From: Armatimonadota bacterium
GTDB taxonomy: Bacteria > Armatimonadota > Zipacnadia > Zipacnadales > VGFC01
Length of the DNA: 37,224 nt
Direction of reading: 5' to 3'
Assembly: GCA_016869045.1 (NCBI GenBank)
Contig: VGFC01000019.1
Location: 1 to 37,224 of the forward strand
The notes under the pieces were generated by a model. It did no database searches, was not told where the DNA came from, and saw only the letters and a list, made by a program, of their open reading frames with translations. Positions 1-33,279 of the stretch are shown in pieces (within the stretch, counting starts at the first letter, position 1; every line of letters begins with the position of its first letter). The position numbers were made by a program, and so were the translations under genes.

Positions 1-1511
1 GGAGAGGGGCCGGGGGTGAGGCAAGAACCGACTGGTCCCACGCCCCCACCGAGCGCGCGGAGGTCGCGAGCTTCCTCATCCTGCAGCACTACTGGTACTG
101 GCAGCAGAGCGGCGACCTCACGCCGATCAAGGAGCACTGGGATTACCTCCGCCGCAACCTCCTCGGCCAGCGCGTGGACGAGCAGGGGCGCCTGCCCTTC
201 CACGGGGATGAGACCTACCGTTTCCCGGGCTATCAGATCTTCGAGGCGACGCAGAAAGAACCCACCGACTGGGTCTCGATGGACCTGCTGAGCGCCGACT
301 CGGCCTGGGAGTACATCGCCGCCGCGGGTGCGCTACACGAGTGGGCGGAGATCCTCGGCAAAGCCGACGAGGCGGCGGAGTATGAACGCCTCGCGATGAA
401 GGTCCGCGATGCCCTGGACCGCGACTTTCGGATGGACGACCGCGGCTACTACGCACCCGCCATCAGTGACTTCTCGGGCGAGCAGTACCGCTACCCCTTC
501 GCGAACGTCAACCTCTCTCCGGTCTGGCTGAACGCCGACCTGCGCTGGTGGAAGCCTGATGACACCTACCCGTTGATGTCCGCCCTGACGGCGATGGGGT
601 GGCTCTGGAAGGACTCAGGAACGGTCAAGACGACGCCGGGTTGCGCGTACTATGTCGGCATGACGCCGGGCTACGCCGTCTGGAACCTCGCGGCCAAGCG
701 ACATGGCTCGCTCGATCAAGCCATCGAGGGCCTGCTGAACGCGGCCTCCCCCGCGGGCGAGTACTCGGAGATGATCGCGCCGGATGACAACCCCACCGAC
801 AAGCACTGGGGCAAGAACCGCGTCCGCCCGTGGGAGGGAGGTATCAACGCGGAGGCCCTCGTCTACGCGTTGACCTGGTTGTGGACCGATCCGGTCTCCC
901 GCACGGTCGGGCTTCAGCCGTGGACCGTGCCCTTGAAGGTCCGCAACATCCACTGTGGTCAGAGCGTCTTGCACGCGGAGTTCACCAAGGCGGGCGAGGG
1001 CACTCAGGTCAAGCTCCGCGTCGAGGGCGAGCATCCGCTGCGGGTCAGGATGCTGAGCGGGGAAGTGGTCGAGCTGAAGCCCGGCCAGGAACGCACGCTC
1101 GAGACGGGGTCGCCGGGGGCGTGGGTGTCCACCGTCGGTCCCCTCCAGCCGCCTTCGCGCCCCTTCTCCTACGGTGAGCCCACGTTCGCCGGCAAAGCGA
1201 AGACCATCGTCGTCACTTGGAGCAAGGGTACGTTCGCTGCCTACAGGGGCCGCCCCTCACCTGCCGCCATCGACACGAAGATCGCCTTCCCACCCGACTA
1301 CCTCGCCGCCGCGCTCTACGACCGGTCAGGCAAGCGCCGTGCCGACACGCTCATCCTCGATGTCTCGAAGTACCCGGGTCACTGTAAGACGGCGGAGTTC
1401 TGGACCAAGAACGAGGGGAAGAGGATCATCGACCGCTTCACGAGCCTTGGTGGCAAGGTCGAGCAGCACCCCAACCCTCAGGACAAGCCGGGCGACCTCT
1501 TCGGCAAGTAG
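1..1511 (+). CDS. Six-hairpin glycosidase-like protein, 3' part
   Basis: The reading frame is open from base 3 and ends at TAG 1509-1511, giving at least 502 residues; the N-terminus lies outside the window. The visible part has the helix-rich pattern of (alpha/alpha)6-barrel glycosidases: repeated Trp/Tyr-rich helices, a segment SMDLLSADSAWEY, and WEGGINAEALVYAL before the barrel closes. These match the style of GH78/GH63/debranching-type enzymes, which hydrolyse oligosaccharides. After the barrel come a short beta-rich linker and a Rossmann-like tail (about the last 110 residues; VVTWSKG, DTLILDVSKYPG) that may be a ThuA/GATase-like accessory domain. Substrate cannot be read from the sequence. 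It converges on the heparinase-type gene, with only an HP-A hairpin between them. Confidence 0.7.
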   Translation, partial: RGAGGEARTDWSHAPTERAEVASFLILQHYWYWQQSGDLTPIKEHWDYLRRNLLGQRVDEQGRLPFHGDETYRFPGYQIFEATQKEPTDWVSMDLLSADSAWEYIAAAGALHEWAEILGKADEAAEYERLAMKVRDALDRDFRMDDRGYYAPAISDFSGEQYRYPFANVNLSPVWLNADLRWWKPDDTYPLMSALTAMGWLWKDSGTVKTTPGCAYYVGMTPGYAVWNLAAKRHGSLDQAIEGLLNAASPAGEYSEMIAPDDNPTDKHWGKNRVRPWEGGINAEALVYALTWLWTDPVSRTVGLQPWTVPLKVRNIHCGQSVLHAEFTKAGEGTQVKLRVEGEHPLRVRMLSGEVVELKPGQERTLETGSPGAWVSTVGPLQPPSRPFSYGEPTFAGKAKTIVVTWSKGTFAAYRGRPSPAAIDTKIAFPPDYLAAALYDRSGKRRADTLILDVSKYPGHCKTAEFWTKNEGKRIIDRFTSLGGKVEQHPNPQDKPGDLFGK

Positions 1512-1518
1512 GGAATCC

Positions 1519-1574
1519 AGGGACTGTCCAAGTCTCGATCCCGCTTGCGGGATCGAGACGCATGGACTGTCCCT
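1519..1574. repeat. HP-A hairpin repeat, copy 1
   Basis: Imperfect inverted repeat. The outer arms are GGGACTGTCC and GGACTGTCCC. The inner stem GTCTCGATCCCGC pairs with GCGGGATCGAGAC around a tiny loop. It fills the gap between two convergent genes (stop codons at 1511 and 1588), so it could act as a two-way terminator. Near-identical copies lie at 20996-21051 and 26237-26287. Confidence 0.85.
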
Positions 1575-1585
1575 TGTTCCCGTTC

Positions 1586-2275
1586 CTACGCCTCCACCCT
1601 CACTTCATGCCTCCCCGGTCTCAGCTCGATGGTGAGCACGCCGTCGGTGTAGGTTGCCGTCTGCTCGACGCCATCCACCAGCACCTTCGCCGGTTGTGCC
1701 GGGAGGGCCAGGGTCAGCGTCATGGGTGCGCTGGCCTCGATGGTGAGCACCGGGGTCGCGCCCAGCGTGCCCACCACCAGCGCGGGCAGGGAGCAGGAGA
1801 TCAGCGGCGTCTCAGCGCGTGAGAGCAGCTTCAGACCCTCGACGAAGAGGGTCTCGGTCCCGTCGGCGGCTGTCGCCAGCGCGAGCCGGTCCGCATCCAC
1901 CTTCAGGTCGCCCGCGACCATCGGCGGCGGCGGCCCCGCAGGCCCTGGTTCCACGCCTTCCTCGTCCGCGGGAACCTCGGGCAATCCGGGGACATGACCC
2001 AGTTCGCGTCGTGTGCGAACTGGGATCGTGTCCCCGGATTGCCCGGACTCCCGGTTCGGCGTAGCTTCCTCCGGCTCAGCCGCCGCCGCACCGGCCTCGC
2101 CTTCCGGCGGAGGAGTCGCCTCGCCGGCGGGGGCGCCCTCGGCGGGCGCCGCTCCCGGTTGTTCTGGCCTCGGGGTCTCGCCCTTGGGCGGCGGCTTGGG
2201 CTTGGGCGGGGGCTTCGGCTTCGGTTGGCGGACGGGCTTGGGCGGAGGTGGGGGAGGCGGCGGCTTACGGAACAT
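1586..2275 (-). CDS. C-terminal segment of the heparinase-type protein in the shifted frame
   Basis: A 229-codon frame starting MFRKPPPPPPPP. It has a Pro/Lys-rich stretch, a translated HP-B repeat (SGQSGDTIPVRTRRELGHVP), and then about 100 residues of beta-sandwich-like sequence (DADRLALATAADGTETLFVE, RPGRHEVRVEA). The last part is what one expects at the end of heparinase II/III proteins. I read it as the displaced 3' part of the same gene rather than an independent gene, because no ribosome-binding site precedes the ATG and the proline run sits where the long frame loses its family signature. Confidence 0.6.
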   Translation of the reverse strand: MFRKPPPPPPPPKPVRQPKPKPPPKPKPPPKGETPRPEQPGAAPAEGAPAGEATPPPEGEAGAAAAEPEEATPNRESGQSGDTIPVRTRRELGHVPGLPEVPADEEGVEPGPAGPPPPMVAGDLKVDADRLALATAADGTETLFVEGLKLLSRAETPLISCSLPALVVGTLGATPVLTIEASAPMTLTLALPAQPAKVLVDGVEQTATYTDGVLTIELRPGRHEVRVEA

Positions 2276-5200
2276 CGCGACAGCCGCGCCTGTCCGCTGG
2301 TCGCTTCGGCGCCCTTACCGTTGGTCACTTCCAGCGCCTTGGCCACGGGCGCCGTCTCACCCTCGAACGGGAGCACCAGCAGGATCAGGTCCTCGGCCTC
2401 CGTCGCGGTCGCGCTCTTGATGCTCGTATGCCACTGGGCGGGCGCTGCGACGTCGGTCTCGGTAAAGCGCGGGTTCTTGGGGAAGGCCTTGCTCGTGCTC
2501 CACGCCAGCTTGCCTGGACCGAAGGCGCCGACCAGGGCCGCGGCACTCCCCTTGCGGATGAGAGCCGTCGAGGCAGCCGCGTCCAGCGTCGGCTGCTCCA
2601 GCGAGTGCAGCAGCCAGGCGTAGCGTGCCTTCTGCGGGGCTTCGACGCGGTCGAAGATCACCAGCCGGTCCGGCCGCAGGAACACGAACCGGCGCCGGTA
2701 CGATTCCAGCAGTTGCGGCGGATAGGCCTCGGCGGCCTGGACGAGCGCGGTGTCTACGGCCTGCGTGTGCAGGAAGCTCTCGATCTTCCCGCGCGCCGTG
2801 ATGTCGTCGGTGCGCTGGCCGAGGTTCCCATTCACCAGCAGCGTGTTATGTGCGAGCGTGGTGCGCGAGAACGAGCTGGCGTGCGGGCTGCGGTAGAAGT
2901 CGTAGTAGCCCGCGTCGATGAGCAGCGGCTCGCCGAAGGCCTCCAGCGTGAAGTGCCCCTGATCGGCGTGGGCGTGGTTGAACGAGCCGAATCGACTCGC
3001 GCGCCCGCGGATGCGCACGCCGCGCGGATCGACCAGCGACGAGTCCATCGCAAACAGGCCGCTGTCCATGAACGCGGCCGATGGCGGCAGGCTCTCGGGC
3101 GCCTGGGGCTGGATGTTGGGGTCGTGCCACAGGAGGTCGAAGACCGTGACCTCCGCCGTCGGCGCCGTCACGTTCGCCGCATACCACGCGGCCCTGGGGT
3201 CGTTGAGCGCCGAGGCCAGGCGCCACATCGCCAGGCGATCCCCGGCATCCGGCGGCATCTCCGGCCCATCCCCGAAGCCCCCGCGCGTGCTGTACGGCGG
3301 CTGCATGTAGGTCTTGTACTTCGCGGTGTTCCGCGTCCACGGGAGCTGGTACAGGTCGATGCCCGCCGTCGTCTTCAGCGCGTCGAAAAGCTCGAACGTG
3401 AATGGCGCCGAACGCTTCCAGTACGTCTCCCCCTGCATCCATCCCCCGTCGTCTCCCGCCCACGGCGCGAAGAGCCCGACGGCCGTCGGCAGCGCAAACC
3501 GCAGCCACTCATCGGCCTCGGCCGTGTCCCCCGCAACGGCGAGTGCGACCACCGTCAGGAAACCCACGGCCGTCTGCCCGTGCGAGCTGAGCGGATAGAG
3601 GTTGATCGGCCGGAGCCCGGTGCTCAGCACCGAGTGCAGCTCATTGCCCCGCGCGATGACGGCCTGAGAGACCTTCTGCTTCTCCTCCTCGGTGAGCGAC
3701 TGCGGCAGCCAGTCCTCCACCAGCGCCAGCGAGAGCAGTATCTCGCGGAAGGCCTGATCGTGGCTGACGTATCCGGTCGAGCCCTTCACATCCCACGCCG
3801 CCAGGCTCAACGCCCGCCGCTTCGCCTCATCCGCGTACGCCTGGTCCCCACTGACCAGCGCCACGAAGGCGAAGTCCCGCACCAGCCACGCCTCCTTCGA
3901 CGCCGTCTCGAAGATCGCGTCGTTGTTCTCCAGGTCCTTCGGCGACGGGTTCCGCCACTTGCCCTTGGTCTTGGGCTCCGTAGCCAACTCGGCGCCCTTG
4001 GCCGCATTCAGCCGCGTCAGCAGAGCGTCCCAGTCGGCCTTCAGCGGCCCCGCGATCAGGCTGCGCAACGCCAGCAGGCTGTCCACCGTGACCCAGATGC
4101 GCGGATGCGGGGGCAGGTCGTTGAGGAGCCGCTCCATCTCCGGCACCGGAATCGACACCGCCGACTCGTCGATCCGGAAGGCCCGCGCCGACGAGGTGGC
4201 GGTCGGCGGCGGCCTGACCGGCGGCTGGCCGAAGTCAGGCTCCTCGCCGGGTTCCTCCGTGCCCATGTCTTCGGGCGGTGCACCCTCCTCCTCCGCAGGC
4301 GCGGCCGTCTCATCCGGCGGGGTCGGCGTCGTCTCCTGCTGACCCGGCTTGGGCTTCCTCGGCTTGCGCGGCTTCGGGGCCGGCGGCGGCTGTTCGGGGG
4401 GAGCCTCCTGGCCAAACACCGGCACACTCAGGAGGATCGGGCTGGCCTCCTTGGGTGGGCGCTTCCTCTCGGGCTTCTTCTTTGGCGGAGGCTTGGCGGG
4501 CGTCTCCTCTGTCTCCGCCCCCTCGTCCGCCGGCTGCATCTCCTCCGCGCCCGTCTCGACCTTGCCCCCCCCCTCCTCCGGGGGCGTCTCCCCCGGCCCG
4601 GGACCGGGAACGACGCCGCTCCCCGCCGTCACGCGCCAGTACCACTGCCCGGGCGCGAGCGGCTCAGGCGGGATGTACACGTTGAGCGTCAGGGCCTCGG
4701 CCTTCTGCGTGCTGTCGGCGGGGAAGTCCGGTGATTGCGACCATTCGAGCGTGTAGACGCTTCCGGGTTGGCCCGGCCAGCGGAAGCGCGGCGGGTTCAC
4801 GACGACCGTTGACGTATCCTCGGGGTAGAAGCCCACGAGGTACGGGCCGGGAGGGAGCGCGGCCATGGGTGCCATTGTGGGCTGAGCCGGCCGGGGTCCC
4901 CCTTCTCCCGCGGAGACCTGCAAACCGTCGAACCACGTCTCACCCGGGCCCTCGTGCAGCAGGACGATCTCCAGCGCGCCCGGCGCCTCGCCCGAGCCTG
5001 GCTTCAGCGCCAGTATCCCGCCACCCGGACGCCAGGTGCGGCTCGGCTCCAGAAGCAGCCGCTCCCCGACCTTCGTGTCCTTCGGGTCGGTGCCCTGTGG
5101 CCGAACGATCACTGACTGCTTGCCCTGCCACCCCTGGTAGCGCAGCGACACCCGCACCACCGGCGGACCCTCGAACGCCGCCAGCGGCGCCCGCAGCCCA

Positions 5201-20995: not shown

Positions 20996-21051
20996 GGGGA
21001 CTGTCCAAGTCTCGATCCCGCCTGCGGGATCGAGACGCATGGACTGTCCCC
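20996..21051. repeat. HP-A hairpin repeat, copy 2
   Basis: Nearly identical to copy 1 (GGGACTGTCC ... GGACTGTCCC with inner GTCTCGATCCCGC stem); loop CT instead of TT. It lies between the secretin-like gene and the coiled-coil gene, both on the minus strand, and could attenuate read-through. Confidence 0.85.
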
Positions 21052-21094
21052 TGTTGACGTTGGGCCTCTCAGCCTCGCCCCGATGTCCTCCGCG

Positions 21095-22338: not shown

Positions 22339-24063
22339 ATGGTCAGGACAGTGGTGGTTGTCGCGTTGCTGTTCGCGTGGCTGCCGCTCCTCGCCGCCAC
22401 CTACTACGTCGATGGCCGGGCGGAGAACGCCTCCGACGACGGCCCGGGCACCGCGGCCCAGCCCTGGAAGACGATTGCGCGGGCCGGGAGCGCGCCCGAA
22501 CTGAAGCCCGGTGACACGGTACTCATCCGGACCGGCGTCTACCGCGAGCACGCGAAGATCACGGTCTCGGGGGAAGAGGGCAACCCGATCACCTTCGCGG
22601 CGGCGCCCGGAGCGAAGGTGGTCGTCAAGGGCTCGGAAGTGGTCAAAGGCCGGTGGACCCGAGTCAGCGAGGACCCCGCCATCCAGGAGCCCTTCCCGAA
22701 CGCCTTCCAGAACGTGTGGAAGATCGAGCTGGGTGAGGAGTTCTTCACCGATCCCGACTTCGTCGGCAGCTACCAGGACAAGGCCCGGCGTTGGGTCTCG
22801 CAGGTCTACCTGCAGGACTACCGCGCGCTCCAGCTCATCGGCGAGGACCGCATCTACACGAACGATCCGTACGCCCGGCTGCGCACGGTCGGGCGGGGGC
22901 TGAACGACCTCGTCATGGACTCCTTCTTCTTCGACCCCGCCACGCAGACGCTCTACATCGAGATCGGCGGCGACCCCGCCTGGTTCAGCATCGAGGTCGG
23001 CGTGCGCGGGTGGACGCTCACGGCGAGTAAGGTGCACGATGTGGTCATCCGCGGCCTTGAGCTGCGCCAGAACCGCCAGCCCGGCGGCCAGTGGCCGATG
23101 GCCAGCCTTGGCGAGTGCGAGCGGGTCGTCGTTGAGGACTGCCACTTCAGCCAGGCCGATTTCTGCGGGTTCGGCATGTGGCGCTCGAAGAACTGCACCG
23201 TGAGACGCTGCGACCTTTCGTACAACGGCAACACGGGGCTCGGCCTGGGCGAGTGCGAGGACTGCGTGGTGGAAGACTGCACGCTGTTCTACAACAACTA
23301 CCGCCGCTTCTCGCCCGGCTGGCACGCCGGTGGGATGAAGTGCATCCCCGGCAACAAGCGCTGCCTCATCCGACGCAACGAGGTGGCCTACAACATCAAC
23401 TCCGACGGCATCTGGTTCGATGCGAGCAACGAGCAGATTCGCATCCTGAGCAACATCAGCCACCACAACGATGGCTGCGGCATCTTCTACGAGATCAACC
23501 CCGGCGGCGGCACCATCGCCGACAACCTCGTCTACGCCAACCACGGCCGGGGCATCTACATCTCGGGTTCGCAGAAGGTGTGGATCGTGAACAACACGGT
23601 CGCCCGCAACGACTGCGGCATCGTCTGCATGCCGCGCGAAGACCCGTTCACGCTGGAGAACGTGAACATCCTCAACAGCCTGCTGATCGACAACTACGTG
23701 GTGGGGGAGAGGGGCCCGCGCGGCTGCGACCTCACGGTCTACATGGGCAGCCCCGGCGAGTACGAGCCGTACGAGCGCAAGGTCATGAGCAACCACTCGG
23801 ACCACAACGTGTACGCCTCACTCACCTGGAACCCGACCATGCGGCACTCCTGGAATCCGGACAACGCACTGGAGCAATGGCAGCAGCGCTGGCAGGAGGA
23901 CCTGCAGTCGAAGCTGATGCCCGTCGAGTACGAGCTCCCCGGCATGGGCTTCCGCCTGTTGACGAAGGCCGGCCTCGACCTCGCGGCGCCCATTCCCGCC
24001 GAAGCCGGCTGGCAGCCCGAGAAGCCCGGCCGCGTCGGCTGCGCGAGGACGGAGTGGAAGTAG
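22339..24063 (+). CDS. Secreted right-handed parallel beta-helix protein
   Basis: 574 aa. ATG 22339 has AGGAGG six bases upstream. Signal peptide MVRTVVVVALLFAWLPLLA, then YYVDGRAENASDDGPG and PWKTIARA, the DUF1565-type opening of many beta-helix proteins. From about 230 to 450 there are repeated PbH1 rungs (VVIRGLELRQNRQ, CTVRRCDLSYNGN, CLIRRNEVAYNINS, IADNLVYANHGRGIYI). Such folds are typical of pectate/alginate/heparin lyases and epimerases, so a polysaccharide lyase or glycan-binding role is likely; no catalytic triad can be fixed. The C-terminal 100 residues are rich in Trp. It is followed 66 bases later by the second M55 peptidase gene. The 185-base upstream region shared with the secretin-like gene must hold divergent promoters, but none is clear. 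Confidence 0.85.
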   Translation: MVRTVVVVALLFAWLPLLAATYYVDGRAENASDDGPGTAAQPWKTIARAGSAPELKPGDTVLIRTGVYREHAKITVSGEEGNPITFAAAPGAKVVVKGSEVVKGRWTRVSEDPAIQEPFPNAFQNVWKIELGEEFFTDPDFVGSYQDKARRWVSQVYLQDYRALQLIGEDRIYTNDPYARLRTVGRGLNDLVMDSFFFDPATQTLYIEIGGDPAWFSIEVGVRGWTLTASKVHDVVIRGLELRQNRQPGGQWPMASLGECERVVVEDCHFSQADFCGFGMWRSKNCTVRRCDLSYNGNTGLGLGECEDCVVEDCTLFYNNYRRFSPGWHAGGMKCIPGNKRCLIRRNEVAYNINSDGIWFDASNEQIRILSNISHHNDGCGIFYEINPGGGTIADNLVYANHGRGIYISGSQKVWIVNNTVARNDCGIVCMPREDPFTLENVNILNSLLIDNYVVGERGPRGCDLTVYMGSPGEYEPYERKVMSNHSDHNVYASLTWNPTMRHSWNPDNALEQWQQRWQEDLQSKLMPVEYELPGMGFRLLTKAGLDLAAPIPAEAGWQPEKPGRVGCARTEWK

Positions 24064-24128
24064 AGGCAACGGAAACGGGAAGCACTGGAGATTCGAAGAG
24101 GGGAAGAACGACAACTACGGAGGCGAAC

Positions 24129-24944
24129 ATGAGGCTGTTCATCTCAGCCGACATCGAGGGCATCAGCGGCGTCACTAACGACGCCCAGGCCAGCCAGACC
24201 GGAGCGCAGTTCCCCGACGCGCGGCGCTGGATGACGGGCGATGTGAACGCGGCCATCGAGGGCGCGTGTGAGGCGGGCGTCACGCAGGTTCTCGTCAAGG
24301 ACGCGCACGGGTGGGCGCTCAACCTCCTACCCGACGAGATCGATGAGCGCGCGACCCTGATCCAGGGCTGGGGTGTCGAGGACGGGATGATGGAGGGGCT
24401 GACGCAGGGCTGCTCCCTGGCCTTCCTCGTCGGCTATCACCCGCGCGCCGGCACGTCGGACGGCATCCTCTCTCACACGTGGAGTGGGGCGCTGCGCCGG
24501 CTCGTGGTGAACGGCGTCGAGCTCGGCGAGACGGGAATCTCCGCCCTCTTCGCTGGGGCGCTGGGCGTGCCGATCGCGTTGGTGACCACCTGCGAGGCCG
24601 GGGCGCAGCAGGCCCGCGAGTTGCTTCCCTGGGTCGAGACCGTCGCCGTGAAGCGCGGCATCACGCGCTTCGCCGCCGAGCTGACTCCCATCAAGCGCGC
24701 CCAGCAGCTCATCCGCGAGGCCGCGCAGCGCGCCGTGCAGCGCCTCGGCGAGATGCAGCCACTGCGCTTCGAGGCGCCCTATACCGTGCAGACAACCTGG
24801 GCGAACCCGGGCATGGCGCAAGCCTGCGCCACCCACGAGGACGTGACGCTCGTGGACGAGTACGCAACCGAGTTCACCGCCCCCGACCAGCTCGCAGCTC
24901 TGAAGCGCCTGCGCCAGCTCTTCCGCGTCGCCCAGAGCGGCTGA
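24129..24944 (+). CDS. M55 family D-aminopeptidase (DppA-like), copy 2
   Basis: 271 aa from ATG 24129, with GGAGG five bases upstream. Zinc and catalytic positions nearly coincide with those of Bacillus DppA: D8 and E10 in ADIEGISG, H60 in KDAHG, H104 in VGYHPRAG, H116 in LSHTWSG (the likely nucleophile/base His) and E134 in NGVELGETG. It should therefore be an active decameric D-aminopeptidase releasing D-amino acids from short peptides. It is only moderately similar to the copy at 8186-9019, so it is an old paralogue or separate acquisition rather than a recent duplicate. It sits between a beta-helix protein and a sugar isomerase-like gene. Confidence 0.92.
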   Translation: MRLFISADIEGISGVTNDAQASQTGAQFPDARRWMTGDVNAAIEGACEAGVTQVLVKDAHGWALNLLPDEIDERATLIQGWGVEDGMMEGLTQGCSLAFLVGYHPRAGTSDGILSHTWSGALRRLVVNGVELGETGISALFAGALGVPIALVTTCEAGAQQARELLPWVETVAVKRGITRFAAELTPIKRAQQLIREAAQRAVQRLGEMQPLRFEAPYTVQTTWANPGMAQACATHEDVTLVDEYATEFTAPDQLAALKRLRQLFRVAQSG

Positions 24945-24959
24945 GCGCAGCGCCGTCCT

Positions 24960-25085
24960 GGGAGCGCGGGCTTCCAGCCGGCTGGCTCGCGGTGGCGCCG
25001 TTGCCGGGAGCGCGGACATCTTGTCCGCACGCGGTGGCGCCGCAGCTGGGAGCGCCGGCACCCTTGCCGGCAGCGGTGGCGCCGT
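24960..25085. repeat. Three HP-D hairpin units
   Basis: Each begins GGGAGCG and ends GGTGGCGCCG. Stems differ but stay paired: a CCAGCCGGCTGG palindrome, GCGGACA/TGTCCGC (loop TCT), and GCCGGC/GCCGGC (loop ACCCTT). They fill the gap between the M55 and TIM-barrel genes. Confidence 0.8.
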
Positions 25086-25131
25086 AGTCACCCTCGGCCT
25101 TCTCTCACTCTCCTGAAAGGCGAACTCACCC

Positions 25132-25956
25132 ATGCTCTCGATGACCACCGACTACCGCACAGGCACCGGCTGCCCGGAGCCGTACCTGCGCCGCATCGCC
25201 GACGCCGGCTTCAGCCACATCCACTGGTGCCACCAGTGGGATACGGACTTCCTCTACGGGCCTGCCGAGACCGACCAGATCGCCGACTGGCTCGGCGAGC
25301 TGAACCTCGTCCTGCTCGACCTCCACGCCTCAGCGGGGAAGGAGAAAGCCTGGGGCTCCTCGCGCGAGTACGAGCGGCGCGCCGGGGTCGAGTTGGTGGC
25401 GAACCGCATCGAGATGACCGCGCGCCTCGGCTCCGAGGTCGTTATCATGCATCTCCCCGGCGGCGCGTTCGAGGAGCATAGCCCGCGAGTCCAGCGCTCG
25501 CTTGATGAGCTGCGCCCCTGTGCGGCGATGCATGGCGTGCGGATCGCGCTGGAGAACGGCGGCTCTCACCAGAGCTTCGACGATATCGAGCGCGTGCTCG
25601 ACGCCTACGGACCCGACTACCTCGGCCTCTGCTATGACTCGGGCCACGGCAACCTCTTCCCCGAGGGCCTCGACCGCCTCGACCGCATCCGCGATCGCCT
25701 CATCTCCGTGCACCTCCACGACAACGACGGCTCGGCCGACCAGCACCGGCTGCTGTTCACCGGAAGCGTTGACTGGGGGCGCTTGGCGGGGATTCTCGCT
25801 CGCTCCGGCTACGAGAAGTGCGTCAGCATGGAGCTCTCCATGCGCAACGAGCCCTATGGTGATGACGAGGACGCCTTCCTCCGAAAGGGCTTCGAGACGG
25901 GGGACCGCCTGGCGGGGATGATCGCCTCGGCAAAAAAGACCGCAGATTCCTCTTGA
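25132..25956 (+). CDS. Sugar phosphate isomerase/epimerase-like TIM barrel
   Basis: 274 aa. It belongs to the xylose isomerase-like / AP endonuclease 2 superfamily (PF01261), cytoplasmic metal-dependent isomerases and epimerases. Metal-binding positions are visible: E141 (ALENGG), D169 and H172 (CYDSGHGN), H194/H196 (VHLHDND) and E234 (SMELSMR). The start at 25132 is the first ATG after a modest AAAGG; ATG 25141 is an alternative. Together with the Gfo/Idh/MocA dehydrogenases it suggests interconversion of an uncommon sugar or polyol. The stop TGA (25954-25956) overlaps a TTGACA promoter element for the candidate RNA that follows. Confidence 0.88.
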   Translation: MLSMTTDYRTGTGCPEPYLRRIADAGFSHIHWCHQWDTDFLYGPAETDQIADWLGELNLVLLDLHASAGKEKAWGSSREYERRAGVELVANRIEMTARLGSEVVIMHLPGGAFEEHSPRVQRSLDELRPCAAMHGVRIALENGGSHQSFDDIERVLDAYGPDYLGLCYDSGHGNLFPEGLDRLDRIRDRLISVHLHDNDGSADQHRLLFTGSVDWGRLAGILARSGYEKCVSMELSMRNEPYGDDEDAFLRKGFETGDRLAGMIASAKKTADSS

Positions 25957-25982
25957 CAGCTTTGTGCAGCTATGCTAATCAT
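25953..25982 (+). promoter_or_regulatory. Sigma70-like promoter of the candidate RNA, with operator-like palindrome
   Basis: TTGACA at 25953-25958, and AATCAT at 25977-25982 after 18 bases as a fair -10 (4 of 6 consensus). A perfect inverted repeat TGTGCAG-N15-CTGCACA (25963-25991) spans the -10 region, a typical place for a repressor site. This AT-richer patch stands out in a GC-rich window. Confidence 0.5.
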
Positions 25983-25988
25983 ACCTGC

Positions 25989-26202
25989 ACAGCACTAGAC
26001 ACACTATCACACCGCGGCAGCGACTGAAGTAGGAGCCAGCCACCTGTCCTGGATCGCGGCTACTGTCGACCCCCCGACGAGCGCCCAGGCTGCGTTCCAG
26101 GTCAAGGCTCCGCCTTCACACACGGTTTCCAACGCAGCCCGCGGTGGAGCCACTACAGCCGGGTCACCCGTCGCCCCACGGATGGCCCGGCTGTTCCTTT
26201 TG
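25989..26202 (+). ncRNA. Candidate orphan structured RNA (about 214 nt)
   Basis: No protein fits here, yet the segment lies between a promoter (25953-25982) and an intrinsic terminator (26155-26201). By eye it forms a multibranch fold. P1 is 26010-26017 with 26139-26146 (CACCGCGG/CCGCGGTG). P2 is 26028-26032 with 26060-26064, continued by 26036-26039 with 26049-26052. P3 is 26065-26068 with 26075-26078. P4 is 26089-26096 with 26131-26138 (GCTGCGTT/AACGCAGC), enclosing hairpin 26104-26108/26112-26116. It does not carry the hallmarks of tmRNA, RNase P RNA, SRP RNA, 6S RNA or a cobalamin riboswitch that I can recognise. The next downstream gene is on the opposite strand, so it is not an obvious leader. 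Strand is set by the terminator T-run. Confidence 0.5.
26155..26201 (+). terminator. Intrinsic terminator of the candidate RNA
   Basis: A perfect nine-base stem ACAGCCGGG (26155-26163) / CCCGGCTGT (26186-26194) is followed by TCCTTTT. The loop contains a small CCGT/ACGG hairpin. Confidence 0.6.
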
Positions 26203-26288
26203 GGACTGTCCAAGTCTCGATCCTGCAGCGGGGACAGGGACTGTCCAAGTCTCGATCCCGCAGGGATCGAGACGCATGGACTGTCCCT
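26202..26288. repeat. HP-A hairpin repeat, copy 3, with a preceding half copy
   Basis: A left half-element (GGGACTGTCC then AAGTCTCGATCC, 26202-26226) is followed directly by a full HP-A element (26237-26287) with a shortened inner loop. The arrangement suggests a partial tandem duplication or one element inserted in another. Confidence 0.8.
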
Positions 26289-26331
26289 TGTTGGCCGTGG
26301 CCTTCCTCCCCCTCTCACCCCTCCCGCCCCC

Positions 26332-27594
26332 CTACACCGCCTTGCCGTACAGACACTCACTCCCTCCCGCATACGCGTCGTGCAGCACGATCCCCTCTTT
26401 CCCGAGGGACGCCGTCACAACCGGCGCCCGTCCCGCATCGAGGTGCGCCTGGTTGCGGGCGATGACCCCGCGGACCGCGTGCACGACCGCCACGGGGAGG
26501 CGCTGGCTCTGTGCATCGGGGTAGGTCCCGGCCAGCTCGGCCGCCGGGATGCCCCGCTTGACGCGCAGGACCTTCTCGAGGCAATCGACGAGGCTGTCCT
26601 TGCCGTACCCAAGAGAGGCCTGTGACCCATCGGGCCGGCGGACCTTGCGGAAGAAGTGCGTGTTGGCAGTGCGGCTGCCCCTGTTCTCGATCCAGTACCT
26701 CAGCCCCCGGTACTGCGAATCCGATTCCACCTTGCCGTAGGTCCCCACGAGCTGGCTCTCCTGGTTGACCGGCCCCTCGAAATCGGCCGGCGTGAGCCAG
26801 TTGTTCTCGTAGATGATCGTCAGCCCGGAAGTGTGCGTAACCGTGGCCTGCACCGCATCGAAGGCGTCCTTCCCGAACTCGCTGCGCAGCCTCTTCTTCT
26901 GTCCCACTGCATACACCGCAAGCGGCTCGAGCTTCAGGTAGTGCATGAACAGGTCCACCCAGTGGATGCCCACATAGGTGAACGGGTCGCTGTCCTCCAC
27001 CCACTTGAAGGTCGTCGTCGAGACCTCCAGCGGCTCTTCAAGCACCCCGCGCGCATAGATCGGCTCCCCGAGGCCCTCCAGCAGCTCGCCGAAGATCCGC
27101 TTGTGGTCGGGGTCATAGCGCTTGTGCATGTCCACGCCGACGATGAGGTTCTGTGCCTCGGCGAGGGCAATGATCTCGTCCGCCTCCGGCACCGACAGAC
27201 ACAGCGGCTTCTCGGCGACGACGTGCGTGCCGTTCCGCAGGGCCGCGAGGATCGGCGCGGTATGCAGGTGATCGGGGGTCGCCACCACAAGCACATCCAG
27301 GTCCGGGCAGTCGCGCAGGATGTCGTCCCACGGCGCCTCGCCGCAGTATGCCTTAGGTCGCGTACCGGTCTCGCGCTCGTTGTCGTCCAAGGCCCGCTGC
27401 GCCGACCCCTCCGACCGCGTCCCAACCGCGACGAGCTCGAACGCCACATCACCGTAGTCTCTCGCCCGATCGTCCAACCCGATCCGATCCAGATAGGGCG
27501 CGATTCCGTTCCTCTGCAGGTCCCACAGCGTCCCCGCAACCACATCGCTCCCGAACATCCCATATCCAACCAACCCGACCTTCACCGTCTCCAT
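26332..27594 (-). CDS. Gfo/Idh/MocA family oxidoreductase, copy 2
   Basis: 420 aa from ATG 27594, with GGAGG five bases upstream; the frame extends upstream only through repeat-derived Ala/Arg/Thr codons. The Rossmann motif is VKVGLVGYGMFGSDV, the canonical catalytic EKP is present (VVAEKPLCLS), and MHKRYDPDHKRI follows. The C-terminal domain (about 150-350; FTYVGIHWVDLFMHYL, YENNWLTPADFEG) is typical of the family. These cytoplasmic enzymes oxidise or reduce sugar and inositol derivatives with NAD(P). It is unlike the copy at 14247-15305, so the substrates probably differ. It lies downstream of the methyltransferase on the same strand. Confidence 0.92.
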   Translation of the reverse strand: METVKVGLVGYGMFGSDVVAGTLWDLQRNGIAPYLDRIGLDDRARDYGDVAFELVAVGTRSEGSAQRALDDNERETGTRPKAYCGEAPWDDILRDCPDLDVLVVATPDHLHTAPILAALRNGTHVVAEKPLCLSVPEADEIIALAEAQNLIVGVDMHKRYDPDHKRIFGELLEGLGEPIYARGVLEEPLEVSTTTFKWVEDSDPFTYVGIHWVDLFMHYLKLEPLAVYAVGQKKRLRSEFGKDAFDAVQATVTHTSGLTIIYENNWLTPADFEGPVNQESQLVGTYGKVESDSQYRGLRYWIENRGSRTANTHFFRKVRRPDGSQASLGYGKDSLVDCLEKVLRVKRGIPAAELAGTYPDAQSQRLPVAVVHAVRGVIARNQAHLDAGRAPVVTASLGKEGIVLHDAYAGGSECLYGKAV

Positions 27595-27627
27595 CCTACC
27601 CTCCGTCATCTGCCGTTGACGTTTGCT

Positions 27628-27716
27628 GGGAGCGCCGGCACCCTTGCCGGCAGTGGTGGTAGCCGTTGCCGTCCCTGGGATCGCGCGCACCCTTGCGCGC
27701 ACGCCGTTGCCGTTCC
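27628..27716. repeat. Two HP-D hairpin units
   Basis: GGGAGC + GCCGGC/GCCGGC with loop ACCCTT, and GGGATC + GCGCGC/GCGCGC with the same loop, separated by CCGTTGCCGT spacers. The constant loop with changed stem is a clear compensatory change. Confidence 0.8.
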
Positions 27717-27749
27717 TGTTGCCTGTCACCTGTCACCTGTTACCTCTTG
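27715..27749. repeat. HEPTAD tract at the methyltransferase stop codon
   Basis: Five units with consensus CCTGTYR (cctgttg, cctgtca, cctgtca, cctgtta, cctcttg). The methyltransferase stop (TAA, 27742-27740) is within the fourth unit, so the last codons are repeat-derived. Confidence 0.7.
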
Positions 27750-28738: not shown

Positions 28739-29025
28739 CGGTTGATCCTCGTTGCTCCTGGATGGTAGAGGGATTAGTTCCTGCGCGGATCAAGCAGTCC
28801 CTCCGTGCGGGATCCTGGCGGTCTCCCGCTCCCCGGCGCGGATAGGCCATGCAGCGACATGAGGCCCGCGGCGAGCCCCCCGCTCGTGGCTGCAGGGAAC
28901 GTCCTGACGCACGGCGAACGAGATACCTGGCAATGATCGGGCCTGCCACACGGCAGGGAGTGATCGCCTCAGCAGCCGACCCGGAGTCCTCGCGACCGCC
29001 GTGCAGTTCAGGGGAGGTCGTCAGT
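28739..29025. other. Intergenic region with no recognisable feature
   Basis: 287 bases between the divergent methyltransferase and zinc-ribbon genes. It must contain divergent promoters, but I see no consensus -35/-10 pair, no hairpin repeat and no credible short gene. The in-frame extension of the downstream gene into this region is Arg/Pro-rich and lacks a ribosome-binding site. Confidence 0.5.
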
Positions 29026-30091: not shown

Positions 30092-32329
30092 CTACTTCTC
30101 CCTCACGCAGAACATGCGATCCGTGAGAACCGCCTCGACCGCATCGGCGTTGTTCGGCGGGCAGACCCAGAAGTACATCCCCGGCTTCAGCTCGTGTATG
30201 CCGAGGTCGTAGGTGCGGTACTCGCCGTCCGAGGCGTTCTCGAGCGTCTCGCCGATCTGCGCCACGCCGGCCTTCGCGTTGGCATCGTAGAGGCCCACGG
30301 TGAACGCCGCGCCGGTCTTGGCCTTCGCGTCACACCGCACGCGTACGTAGCAATGGCACGGGCCAAGGTCGGTCATGTCGAGCGAGATCGGGTACTGCGT
30401 CGCCCAGTTCGGGTGACCGCCGCCCATCCGCGCCGCCTTGCCGTCCGAGGCCTTCGGATCGTCCGCGAGCGTCACCCAACTGCCGAGGCCGTGCAGCGTG
30501 AACTCGTTGTCCTGGATATCGACCCAGTCCTCGGCCGGCAGGTCCTTACACTCATCCGGCGGCGGGCCCGGCTCGCGGAAGCGCATCACCAGCCCCGGCG
30601 CGTAGTCGGCGAAGCTCCGGCCCTCGCTGAAGTTCCGCGCATCGAACTCCTGCGCCGCCGCGACGAACGCCTCCACCGCCGCCACCGGGTCCTCCGGCCC
30701 GAGGAACGCCACGCCCTGCCTCTTCGCCTGCCGCTTCATGGCCGGATAGCGCATCAGCCAGACATGGTCCAGCGGCAGCCGCGCCCGGCGCACGCGCGCC
30801 GACAGCGCCGGGTCGTCCGCCACGGCCGTCTGCGCCTGGTCGAACAGCTCCGTCGCCCGGTTCAGCGTCTCCAGGTGCAGCCAACTCGCCGTGTCCGCCA
30901 TGAAGCAGCGCAGGTATGTCTTCTGCCGCTCCACGGTGTCGGACATCAGGTCGATGTACTGCAACAAGGGGTCCGCCGCCGGGCCGTAGTAGCCCTCCAC
31001 GAACTCCCGAATCAGCGCTTTCTCATCCCGCGACGGGTCCCACATCAGGTGAGAGAGGAGCCACGCCCGCAGCTCCGGGAAGTCGCTGATCGAGCACGAG
31101 GCGTCCCCTTGCTCGAACAGGCCGATGGCGTTGCGGTCCACGAACAGCCGGATGTTCGGCGCTAAGCTCCGCCAATTCGGGTGCGGCTGAATGTAGTTCG
31201 CGAAGTTGGTGACGTAGTCCCAGATGTACAGCTGTGGCGCGAGCTTGCTCCACGCCTCGATGTCCTCGCGAAAGGTCGCGTTGCTCTCGCCCGTGCCCAG
31301 CGGTTCGGCGAAGTTGCACTCGATCGAGCAGAGCCGCACGATCACATTCCTGCGCGGCTGGACGGTCTTCGGCGCATGGCGCGTGTAGGAATACGCCAAC
31401 GTCTCGACGAGAAAGTCGGGGAACTCCTTCTCGATGTCCTCGGCGACCTTGTTCACGAACTGGATGATCGGCCCCGACGGTGACCCCTCGGCCTCCTCGA
31501 TGGCCTTGCACGCCTCGCATTGGCAGTTCCCGCCCCAGTCGTTCTGCGCAATCGAGATCATCCCGGCGGTCGGGTCCTTCCGGCACCACTCCAGCGCCAC
31601 GCGCGTCAGCTCCGCGCGCATCTCGTCGTTGGTCAGGCAGAGCTGCCCGCCATCCGCCGTGCGCTTGCGTTTCAGCAGACTGTACCAGTCCGGGTGATCG
31701 GCGAAGTGCTTCTCCGGCGGCAGGAGCTGGTAGAACGTATGGCACCATCCGAGCAGGTTGTAGTGCCCGCCATACTCCGGCGGGATGCGCTCGAAGTGCC
31801 CATTCGTCTTCAGCCTCGCCGCGAACACCCCGTCGAACGCACCCCGGTAGAACGCCTCCCGGTACTGCAGCTTCGGCACATAGACGACGTCCAGGCCCGG
31901 TACCTCCAGCGTGGGCCTCTGCGGGATGGTGGCCTCGCTCGCCGTCCACCACCTCACCCCAACCACATCCTCCAGGAAGCTGTACACCGCATACAGCGTC
32001 CCCCGCGGCCGCCCGCCCGTCAGGATGAGCGTATCCCCGTCGGTCTTCATCACGATGCCATCGTGCTTCAGCGAGTCCATGTCCACGCCCGGCGCCGGCC
32101 CGCCGACGCGGATCACCTTCCGCCCCGTGCCGCCGATCGGGAACTCCGCCCCGGTCACGAGCTTCAGATGCTCGGCCAACTCCTTCGCCGCCGTCTGCTC
32201 GGCCAGGATCGGCTCCGCGCACAGCACGATGGTGTAATCCGCCTTGCCGTCGCGGGCGAGTTGCAGGGCCGCGTGTCCCGGCACGCATAGCAGGAGGGCG
32301 GCGATCAATGATACGGTGACGGTTGACAT
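30092..32329 (-). CDS. Secreted DUF4838 family protein
   Basis: 745 aa from ATG 32329, with GGGAG upstream and a signal peptide (MSTVTVSLIAALLLCVPGHA). Residues about 22-135 form the alpha/beta N-terminal domain common to GH20/GH67-type enzymes (TAAKELAEHLKLVTGAEFPI, GGRPRGTLYAVYSFLEDVVG). The DUF4838 TIM-barrel-like domain follows (about 155-420) with the characteristic ISIAQNDWGGNCQCEACKAI. The last 150 residues look like a beta-sandwich carbohydrate-binding domain. DUF4838 proteins are presumed glycosidases of unknown specificity and are common in polysaccharide-degrading phyla. The gene is divergent from the secreted protein at 32512, and the 182 bases between them must hold both promoters. 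Confidence 0.88.
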   Translation of the reverse strand: MSTVTVSLIAALLLCVPGHAALQLARDGKADYTIVLCAEPILAEQTAAKELAEHLKLVTGAEFPIGGTGRKVIRVGGPAPGVDMDSLKHDGIVMKTDGDTLILTGGRPRGTLYAVYSFLEDVVGVRWWTASEATIPQRPTLEVPGLDVVYVPKLQYREAFYRGAFDGVFAARLKTNGHFERIPPEYGGHYNLLGWCHTFYQLLPPEKHFADHPDWYSLLKRKRTADGGQLCLTNDEMRAELTRVALEWCRKDPTAGMISIAQNDWGGNCQCEACKAIEEAEGSPSGPIIQFVNKVAEDIEKEFPDFLVETLAYSYTRHAPKTVQPRRNVIVRLCSIECNFAEPLGTGESNATFREDIEAWSKLAPQLYIWDYVTNFANYIQPHPNWRSLAPNIRLFVDRNAIGLFEQGDASCSISDFPELRAWLLSHLMWDPSRDEKALIREFVEGYYGPAADPLLQYIDLMSDTVERQKTYLRCFMADTASWLHLETLNRATELFDQAQTAVADDPALSARVRRARLPLDHVWLMRYPAMKRQAKRQGVAFLGPEDPVAAVEAFVAAAQEFDARNFSEGRSFADYAPGLVMRFREPGPPPDECKDLPAEDWVDIQDNEFTLHGLGSWVTLADDPKASDGKAARMGGGHPNWATQYPISLDMTDLGPCHCYVRVRCDAKAKTGAAFTVGLYDANAKAGVAQIGETLENASDGEYRTYDLGIHELKPGMYFWVCPPNNADAVEAVLTDRMFCVREK

Positions 32330-32511
32330 GGGGGCTCCCCCAAGTGGCTCAGTCTGCAAGACGCATTCCCCGAGGCGGCCGCGCGGGCCTTCCCCTGCAC
32401 TCAGACAGGCGGCATTGGAGGAACGCGCCGGGGGGGGCGAATGTGAGCGCGGTTTGGACGCAACAGCAGGATCATGGGTGGAGCCGTACCCGCCCCAAGG
32501 GAGGTGACGAC

Positions 32512-33279
32512 ATGCGATCATGGACGCTGGTGGGAGGTACCCTTGGCGTGTTGATGGTGGGGGGGGTCGGGGCTCTTGCACAAGACGCGGAGGTGAAGAT
32601 CCCCGACAATCCCGAGGAGTACTTCCCAATGACGGTGGGGAGTGAGTGGACGTACGACTTGCGCATCTCGGCTGATCCTGTCGGTTTCTCCCGCCTCCAA
32701 CGCGGCACGGAAACAAAGACGAAGATAGAGAGGGAGGCCCTGCCGACGGAGGAGTCCAGCAAGATGCGCAAGGTCACCTATCGGATCACCGAGGTTGGTA
32801 GGGGGACGGGAATGGAGTACCGCGAGGTCGCGTGTGAACGCGACACGACATTGGTGCCGCGGTTCCCCAATCCCAAACGCCTTCCGTACTGGTTCACGGT
32901 CTGGGGGCTGTCGAGGGTTGAGGACCCGCCGCTGGTCTACGAGTACGTCAGCTTCGTAGAGCCCGGGCAGCTCCACCAGGAGCGCCGGCCTATCGCCGTC
33001 TTGGCTGAGGCCGGTCACCGGTCGTACGAACTGCCAGATATCAGCGTGGAGTGCTCACGGCTCCGGGACCCTCTCACCGTGCCTGCTGGTACATTCAGCG
33101 ATTGCATAGCAAACCGATGGACCAACACGTTCTTGATACCGTTTTGTGAGGAACTCGTGTTCGCCCGTGGGGTCGGCCTCATCTGCGTCGTGCAGCGCAG
33201 CGAGGAGGAGGACAAGAAAGGCGAGATTACCTACGAGATGAAGCTGGTGTCCTACAAGATCGCGGAGCCGGCGCCGTAG
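32512..33279 (+). CDS. Secreted protein of unknown function
   Basis: 255 aa. ATG 32512 follows an almost perfect ribosome-binding site (GGAGGTGA), and a signal peptide is present (MRSWTLVGGTLGVLMVGGVGALAQ). The mature part starts with FPMTVGSEWTYDLRIS, and VPAGTFSDCIANRW lies near residue 200. That pairing of GxxWxY and PxGxFxxC is seen in small beta-barrel-like exported proteins of uncharacterised families. There are a few cysteines and no lipobox. No function can be given. It converges on the HEPN gene; a small GGCCG/CGGCC hairpin (33303-33316) lies between them. Confidence 0.7.
   Translation: MRSWTLVGGTLGVLMVGGVGALAQDAEVKIPDNPEEYFPMTVGSEWTYDLRISADPVGFSRLQRGTETKTKIEREALPTEESSKMRKVTYRITEVGRGTGMEYREVACERDTTLVPRFPNPKRLPYWFTVWGLSRVEDPPLVYEYVSFVEPGQLHQERRPIAVLAEAGHRSYELPDISVECSRLRDPLTVPAGTFSDCIANRWTNTFLIPFCEELVFARGVGLICVVQRSEEEDKKGEITYEMKLVSYKIAEPAP

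Follow-up and report, generated by a model that had tools for sequence, protein, structure and literature searches.

The small RNA sX13 of Xanthomonas is Hfq independent and acts through C-rich loops that target G-rich sequences close to start codons (PMC3771888). C-rich loops are also described for RNAIII and the Rsa RNAs of Staphylococcus aureus (PMC2837412, PMC3861533), and RNAIII can repress coa without Hfq (PMC2837412). 6S RNA (RF00013) is a rod-like closed RNA of ~180 to 200 nt with its own promoter, and comparisons of intergenic regions have yielded candidate RNAs that are conserved, G+C-rich, and structured and have no assigned role (PMC8632094, PMC2864571). Here, we looked into a locus that bears a likeness to each of these. 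The window, a stretch of 37,224 nucleotides, comprises the whole of contig C19 in a 7.87-Mb draft Armatimonadota genome (G000). An earlier note on this DNA had proposed a free-standing regulated RNA of no recognized class between two convergent protein genes. What we describe is a new RNA family, solidly supported but of a fairly ordinary kind and narrowly distributed; judging from sequence comparison, it is very probably a real RNA gene under selection.

The predicted RNA of ~213 nt lies on the plus strand at 25988 to 26201, with its start placed from the position of the -10 element and its end from a 3' hairpin, and it falls within a block that is conserved in a second genome (G001) from the promoter to that hairpin. 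Its promoter spans 25953 to 25981 on the plus strand and consists of TTGACA (25953 to 25958), a 17-base spacer, and the -10 hexamer TAATCA (25976 to 25981), which, together with a TG at 25973 to 25974, forms an extended -10 element (TGC-TAATCA, 25973 to 25981). A consensus scan, which scores AATCAT at a spacing of 18 as the -10, found 1 promoter-like site in the region versus 0.0 expected from shuffles, and G001 keeps TTGACA-17-TAANCA with the preceding TG. The promoter of the earlier note was thus confirmed. The perfect palindrome TGTGCAG-N15-CTGCACA that overlaps it is present at 25963 to 25991, but its reading as an operator was rejected: gapped 7-bp inverted repeats turn up in the window at a rate of about 0.25 per 60 bases, which puts the palindrome at chance level, and in G001 uncompensated substitutions have altered both half-sites (TGTTCAA...CTCTACA) while the promoter is retained. 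No further exact copies of the palindrome were found in either genome. Without the operator, the "regulated" part of the earlier description lost its support as well.

We searched 101 genomes for other copies at the DNA level and found one, in G001; no third genome of this genus was among those searched. Each of the two genomes, which are drafts 95% and 86% complete, has one detected copy. The G001 copy follows the same three genes, which encode a beta-helix protein, an M55 D-aminopeptidase, and a xylose-isomerase-like TIM-barrel protein. The last of these is the upstream neighbor of the RNA (25132 to 25956, plus strand; PF01261, AP_endonuc_2) and has 77% amino-acid identity between the genomes, with four-fold sites 56% identical. 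The alignment of the two contigs breaks past this gene, restarts exactly at CTTGACAG, and runs as far as the end of the 3' hairpin, beyond which the DNA differs. Between 26009 and 26198, 169 of the 190 aligned bases are identical (89%), versus 50 to 58% of the four-fold degenerate sites in the three neighboring genes, and drift by itself does not account for a block of this kind (binomial P value ~5 × 10−23 at 56% identity). These results indicate that the RNA block is under strong constraint, as measured against its neighboring genes. The leader and the interior are the least conserved parts of the RNA.

The segment from 25989 to 26210 folds at -97.8 kcal/mol (z = -4.24), with 0 of 200 shuffles as good, and is thus more stable than expected by chance; the z value of the G001 copy is -6.54. 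Independent folds of the two genomes have 48 pairs in common, namely, 12 in a closing helix, 20 in an apical arm, and 16 in the 3' hairpin, all on the plus strand. The closing helix (26010 to 26146, with 26010 to 26022 pairing with 26133 to 26146) encloses the core; the earlier note had given it 8 pairs, and these are present as a contiguous run within a helix whose full length is 12. The apical arm (26046 to 26103, with 26046 to 26068 pairing with 26075 to 26103) includes a run of 39 bases identical in the two genomes and ends in the loop ACCCCC (26069 to 26074), which is unpaired in both with a probability of 0.98 to 1.0. The three branches formerly drawn inside the closing helix did not hold up, as the folds of both genomes show mainly one long rod-like arm; the segment that separates the closing helix from the arm takes different folds in G000 and G001, and the structure there is unreliable. 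The 3' hairpin (26155 to 26194) is highly stable (z = -4.95 in G000 and -7.32 in G001), contains three one-sided changes that preserve pairing, and presents the loop CGCCCC (26172 to 26177), whose sequence is identical in the two genomes and whose CCCC is unpaired with a probability of 0.95 to 1.0 in both. It is followed by TTCCTTTT (26194 to 26201) in G000 and by CTTT in G001, both below the threshold of the terminator scan, which made no call at this hairpin. Of the terminator in the earlier note, a stable stem with a T-run remains, but the stem has 16 pairs rather than 9 and the T-run is weak; we predict that hairpin and T-run together are probably a weak terminator.

Pair-preserving changes were evaluated by comparing two sequences against a consensus structure derived from both. 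In this comparison, 5 of 5 changed consensus pairs remain paired, one through a double change from C-G to U-A in the closing helix and four through changes involving G-U. Because G-U is involved, these 4 of the 5 pairs are preserved only in a plus-strand RNA. The minus-strand fold is also less distinct, with z values of -1.1 and -2.3 in the two genomes versus -3.1 and -3.9 for the plus strand. The search for homologues and covariation that the earlier note had proposed gave one homologue in which all changed pairs are kept, but 246 of 500 shuffles reached the observed pair-keeping score. When the structure of either genome was used singly, kept pairs were not in significant excess (P values = 0.37 and 0.10). 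With n = 2 sequences, the support that covariation lends to the predicted fold is weak.

Next, we compared the RNA with catalogued classes, and the other check proposed earlier, a search with Rfam covariance models, found no match at the gathering score in the whole window, so that no known class was matched. At a relaxed cutoff, the RNA region gave only far-below-threshold matches to unrelated families; 6S RNA (RF00013) did not match at E values up to 10 in 25800 to 26350, and the covariance models of tmRNA, RNase P RNA, and SRP RNA had no match in the window. All four of these housekeeping RNAs are present on other contigs of G000 (6S RNA on C124, with a good match; tmRNA on C10; RNase P RNA on C152; SRP RNA on C35), and we rejected a divergent housekeeping RNA, in line with the earlier note, which had recognized no standard housekeeping RNA. 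We then searched the order and 291 genomes of the phylum with a covariance model of the RNA core (R1). Among the 291 genomes, it returned only the two copies and two weak partial matches that were judged on inspection to be due to chance. Weak matches of the model at L035, L037, and L038 resemble coding sequence, and the one at L036 is a G-rich hairpin between genes, with no relation to the RNA. A DNA match in genome G141 (L003) lies inside a gene, and a pattern match in a Nitrospirales genome (L024) covers the promoter pattern only. Searches of phage, plasmid, and viral contigs returned nothing. As far as can be seen, the RNA family appears to be confined to one genus. The candidates from intergenic comparisons (PMC8632094, PMC2864571) came from searches that need many homologues, whereas two are known here. 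The case for a free-standing RNA outside the catalogued classes is well supported by the conservation, the position, the strand-specific pair changes, and the absence of an Rfam match, and it adds an uncatalogued, strongly conserved RNA gene to a lineage represented here by draft genomes only.

The loops led us to a tentative proposal for what the RNA does. ACCCCC and CGCCCC are identical in the two genomes and exposed in both, and two CCCC loops occurred in only 2% of shuffled sequences. Hfq was found in 15 of the 21 genomes searched but was not detected in G000 or G001 (draft genomes, 95% and 86% complete); such an absence fits Hfq-independent activity without proving it. Given the two exposed, conserved CCCC loops, the lack of a detected Hfq, and the published precedents, a trans-acting antisense RNA is the reading best supported. 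A plus-strand transcript of ~213 nt, ending at the 3' hairpin, would be made, and it may act in trans, which is the less certain step. Its rigidly presented ACCCCC and CGCCCC loops would be the first parts to engage G-rich ribosome-binding sites, and the pairing would then block translation or trigger the decay of several mRNAs, without Hfq. Taken as a whole, mechanism included, this reading of a free-standing, genus-level small RNA that acts as an Hfq-independent trans antisense regulator through its C-rich loops is possible but falls somewhat short of an even chance. If the loop mechanism is true, the RNA would be an independent case of regulation by C-rich loops in a lineage seemingly without Hfq, most of whose relatives have it, and a testable one for RNA regulation in such lineages. 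A search for extended complementarity to the apical loop gave no target. The start regions of the neighboring genes pair with the RNA no better than background, and these genes were rejected as targets. Hfq was also not detected in the three genomes of family f2, which, with G000 and G001, suggests that Hfq was lost in part of the order.

The likeness to sX13 lies in stable stems that present CCCC loops in a G+C-rich host, sX13 acting without Hfq (PMC3771888). However, sX13 has 115 nt, three stem-loops, and an unstructured 5' region, whereas the RNA described here would have ~213 nt in a closed rod and one 3' hairpin, and we found no sequence relation between the two (no Rfam match). RNAIII and the Rsa RNAs likewise share exposed C-rich loops with our RNA, but their published motif is UCCC, RNAIII encodes a peptide, they belong to another phylum, and they have no sequence match here. 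We do not assign the RNA to any family; at best, it may work like the known C-rich-loop small RNAs.

Conservation extends beyond the loops over the whole arm, which is something that antisense pairing does not require. Because the arm and not the loops alone is conserved, the main rival is a structured RNA that binds protein, in which the rod would serve as a scaffold or decoy (for example, as a second 6S-like RNA sequestering RNA polymerase or as the core of a ribonucleoprotein) and the 3' hairpin would be a terminator only. The run of 39 identical bases, the presence of rod and closing helix in both genomes, and the sigma-70-type promoter are in its favor. Nevertheless, the RNA lacks a 6S score and differs from 6S RNA in its C-rich apical loop and extra 3' hairpin, G000 has a good 6S RNA elsewhere, and a protein-binding rod leaves the conservation and exposure of the loops unexplained; we consider it unlikely, though not far-fetched. 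A new class of noncoding RNA built around the conserved rod, protein binding or catalytic rather than antisense and confined to a lineage without detectable Hfq, is doubtful in our estimation. Some other mechanism, such as a ribozyme, an RNA sponge, or a regulator whose 5' leader or variable interior does the pairing, would suit an RNA that is restricted to one lineage, resembles no Rfam family, and has a function that its sequence does not determine; yet leader and interior are precisely where conservation is lowest, and we regard this as rather improbable.

Readings that deny the RNA a gene of its own fared worse. It lies directly past the TIM-barrel gene in both genomes, and in G001 a plus-strand gene starts ~110 bases downstream, as might be expected of a leader (riboswitch or attenuator) or of the processed 3' end of a neighboring mRNA. 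In G000, however, the downstream neighbor is a convergent GFO/IDH/MocA oxidoreductase gene (26332 to 27729, minus strand; PF01408), which does not adjoin the RNA in G001, where the plus-strand gene in its place is unrelated. The next plus-strand open reading frame of note in G000 starts at 28849, ~2.65 kb from the RNA; the earlier note was right about the convergent neighbors and the long gap, although it had put the gap at ~2.8 kb. Furthermore, the -35 element and the stop codon of the TIM-barrel gene overlap in G000, whereas in G001 the element follows that codon by ~124 bases, so that the distance to the gene varies while the block stays intact. With a conserved promoter of its own and no shared downstream gene, the RNA is very unlikely to be a leader or an mRNA 3' end; the earlier note had already argued against a leader. 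An element acting as DNA (an integration site, repeat, or mobile element) could explain why the synteny of the two genomes ends right at the 3' end of the RNA and why a high-copy palindromic repeat follows in G000, and a short protein gene could explain the open frames found on both strands in both genomes. The element is single copy in each genome, though, and both its G-U-dependent pair changes and its more distinct plus-strand fold speak for RNA. The best plus frame lacks a usual start codon in G000, and all of its four-fold sites (13 of 13) are the same in the two genomes, whereas nearly half have changed in the real neighboring genes. One-base indels between the genomes interrupt the frames. 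The coding frames were rejected on these grounds, in line with the earlier statement that no protein frame fits, and a DNA element or short protein gene is highly improbable.

The syntenic block shared by the two genomes extends from 22393 to 26194 in the window and from 1277 to 4997 in the G001 locus (L039), takes in the beta-helix, M55 D-aminopeptidase, and TIM-barrel protein genes and the RNA, and breaks off at both of its ends. A large DUF4838 protein with no assigned function is encoded at 30092 to 32716 on the minus strand. The palindromic repeat, with the form GGGACTGTCC...GTCTCGATCCCGC-NN-GCGGGATCGAGAC..., is interspersed at high copy number and was matched in at least 40 places across the G000 genome; copies in the window lie at 1518 to 1578, 20997 to 21056, and 26236 to 26290, the last directly past the T-run of the RNA gene, a place from which the repeat is absent in G001.
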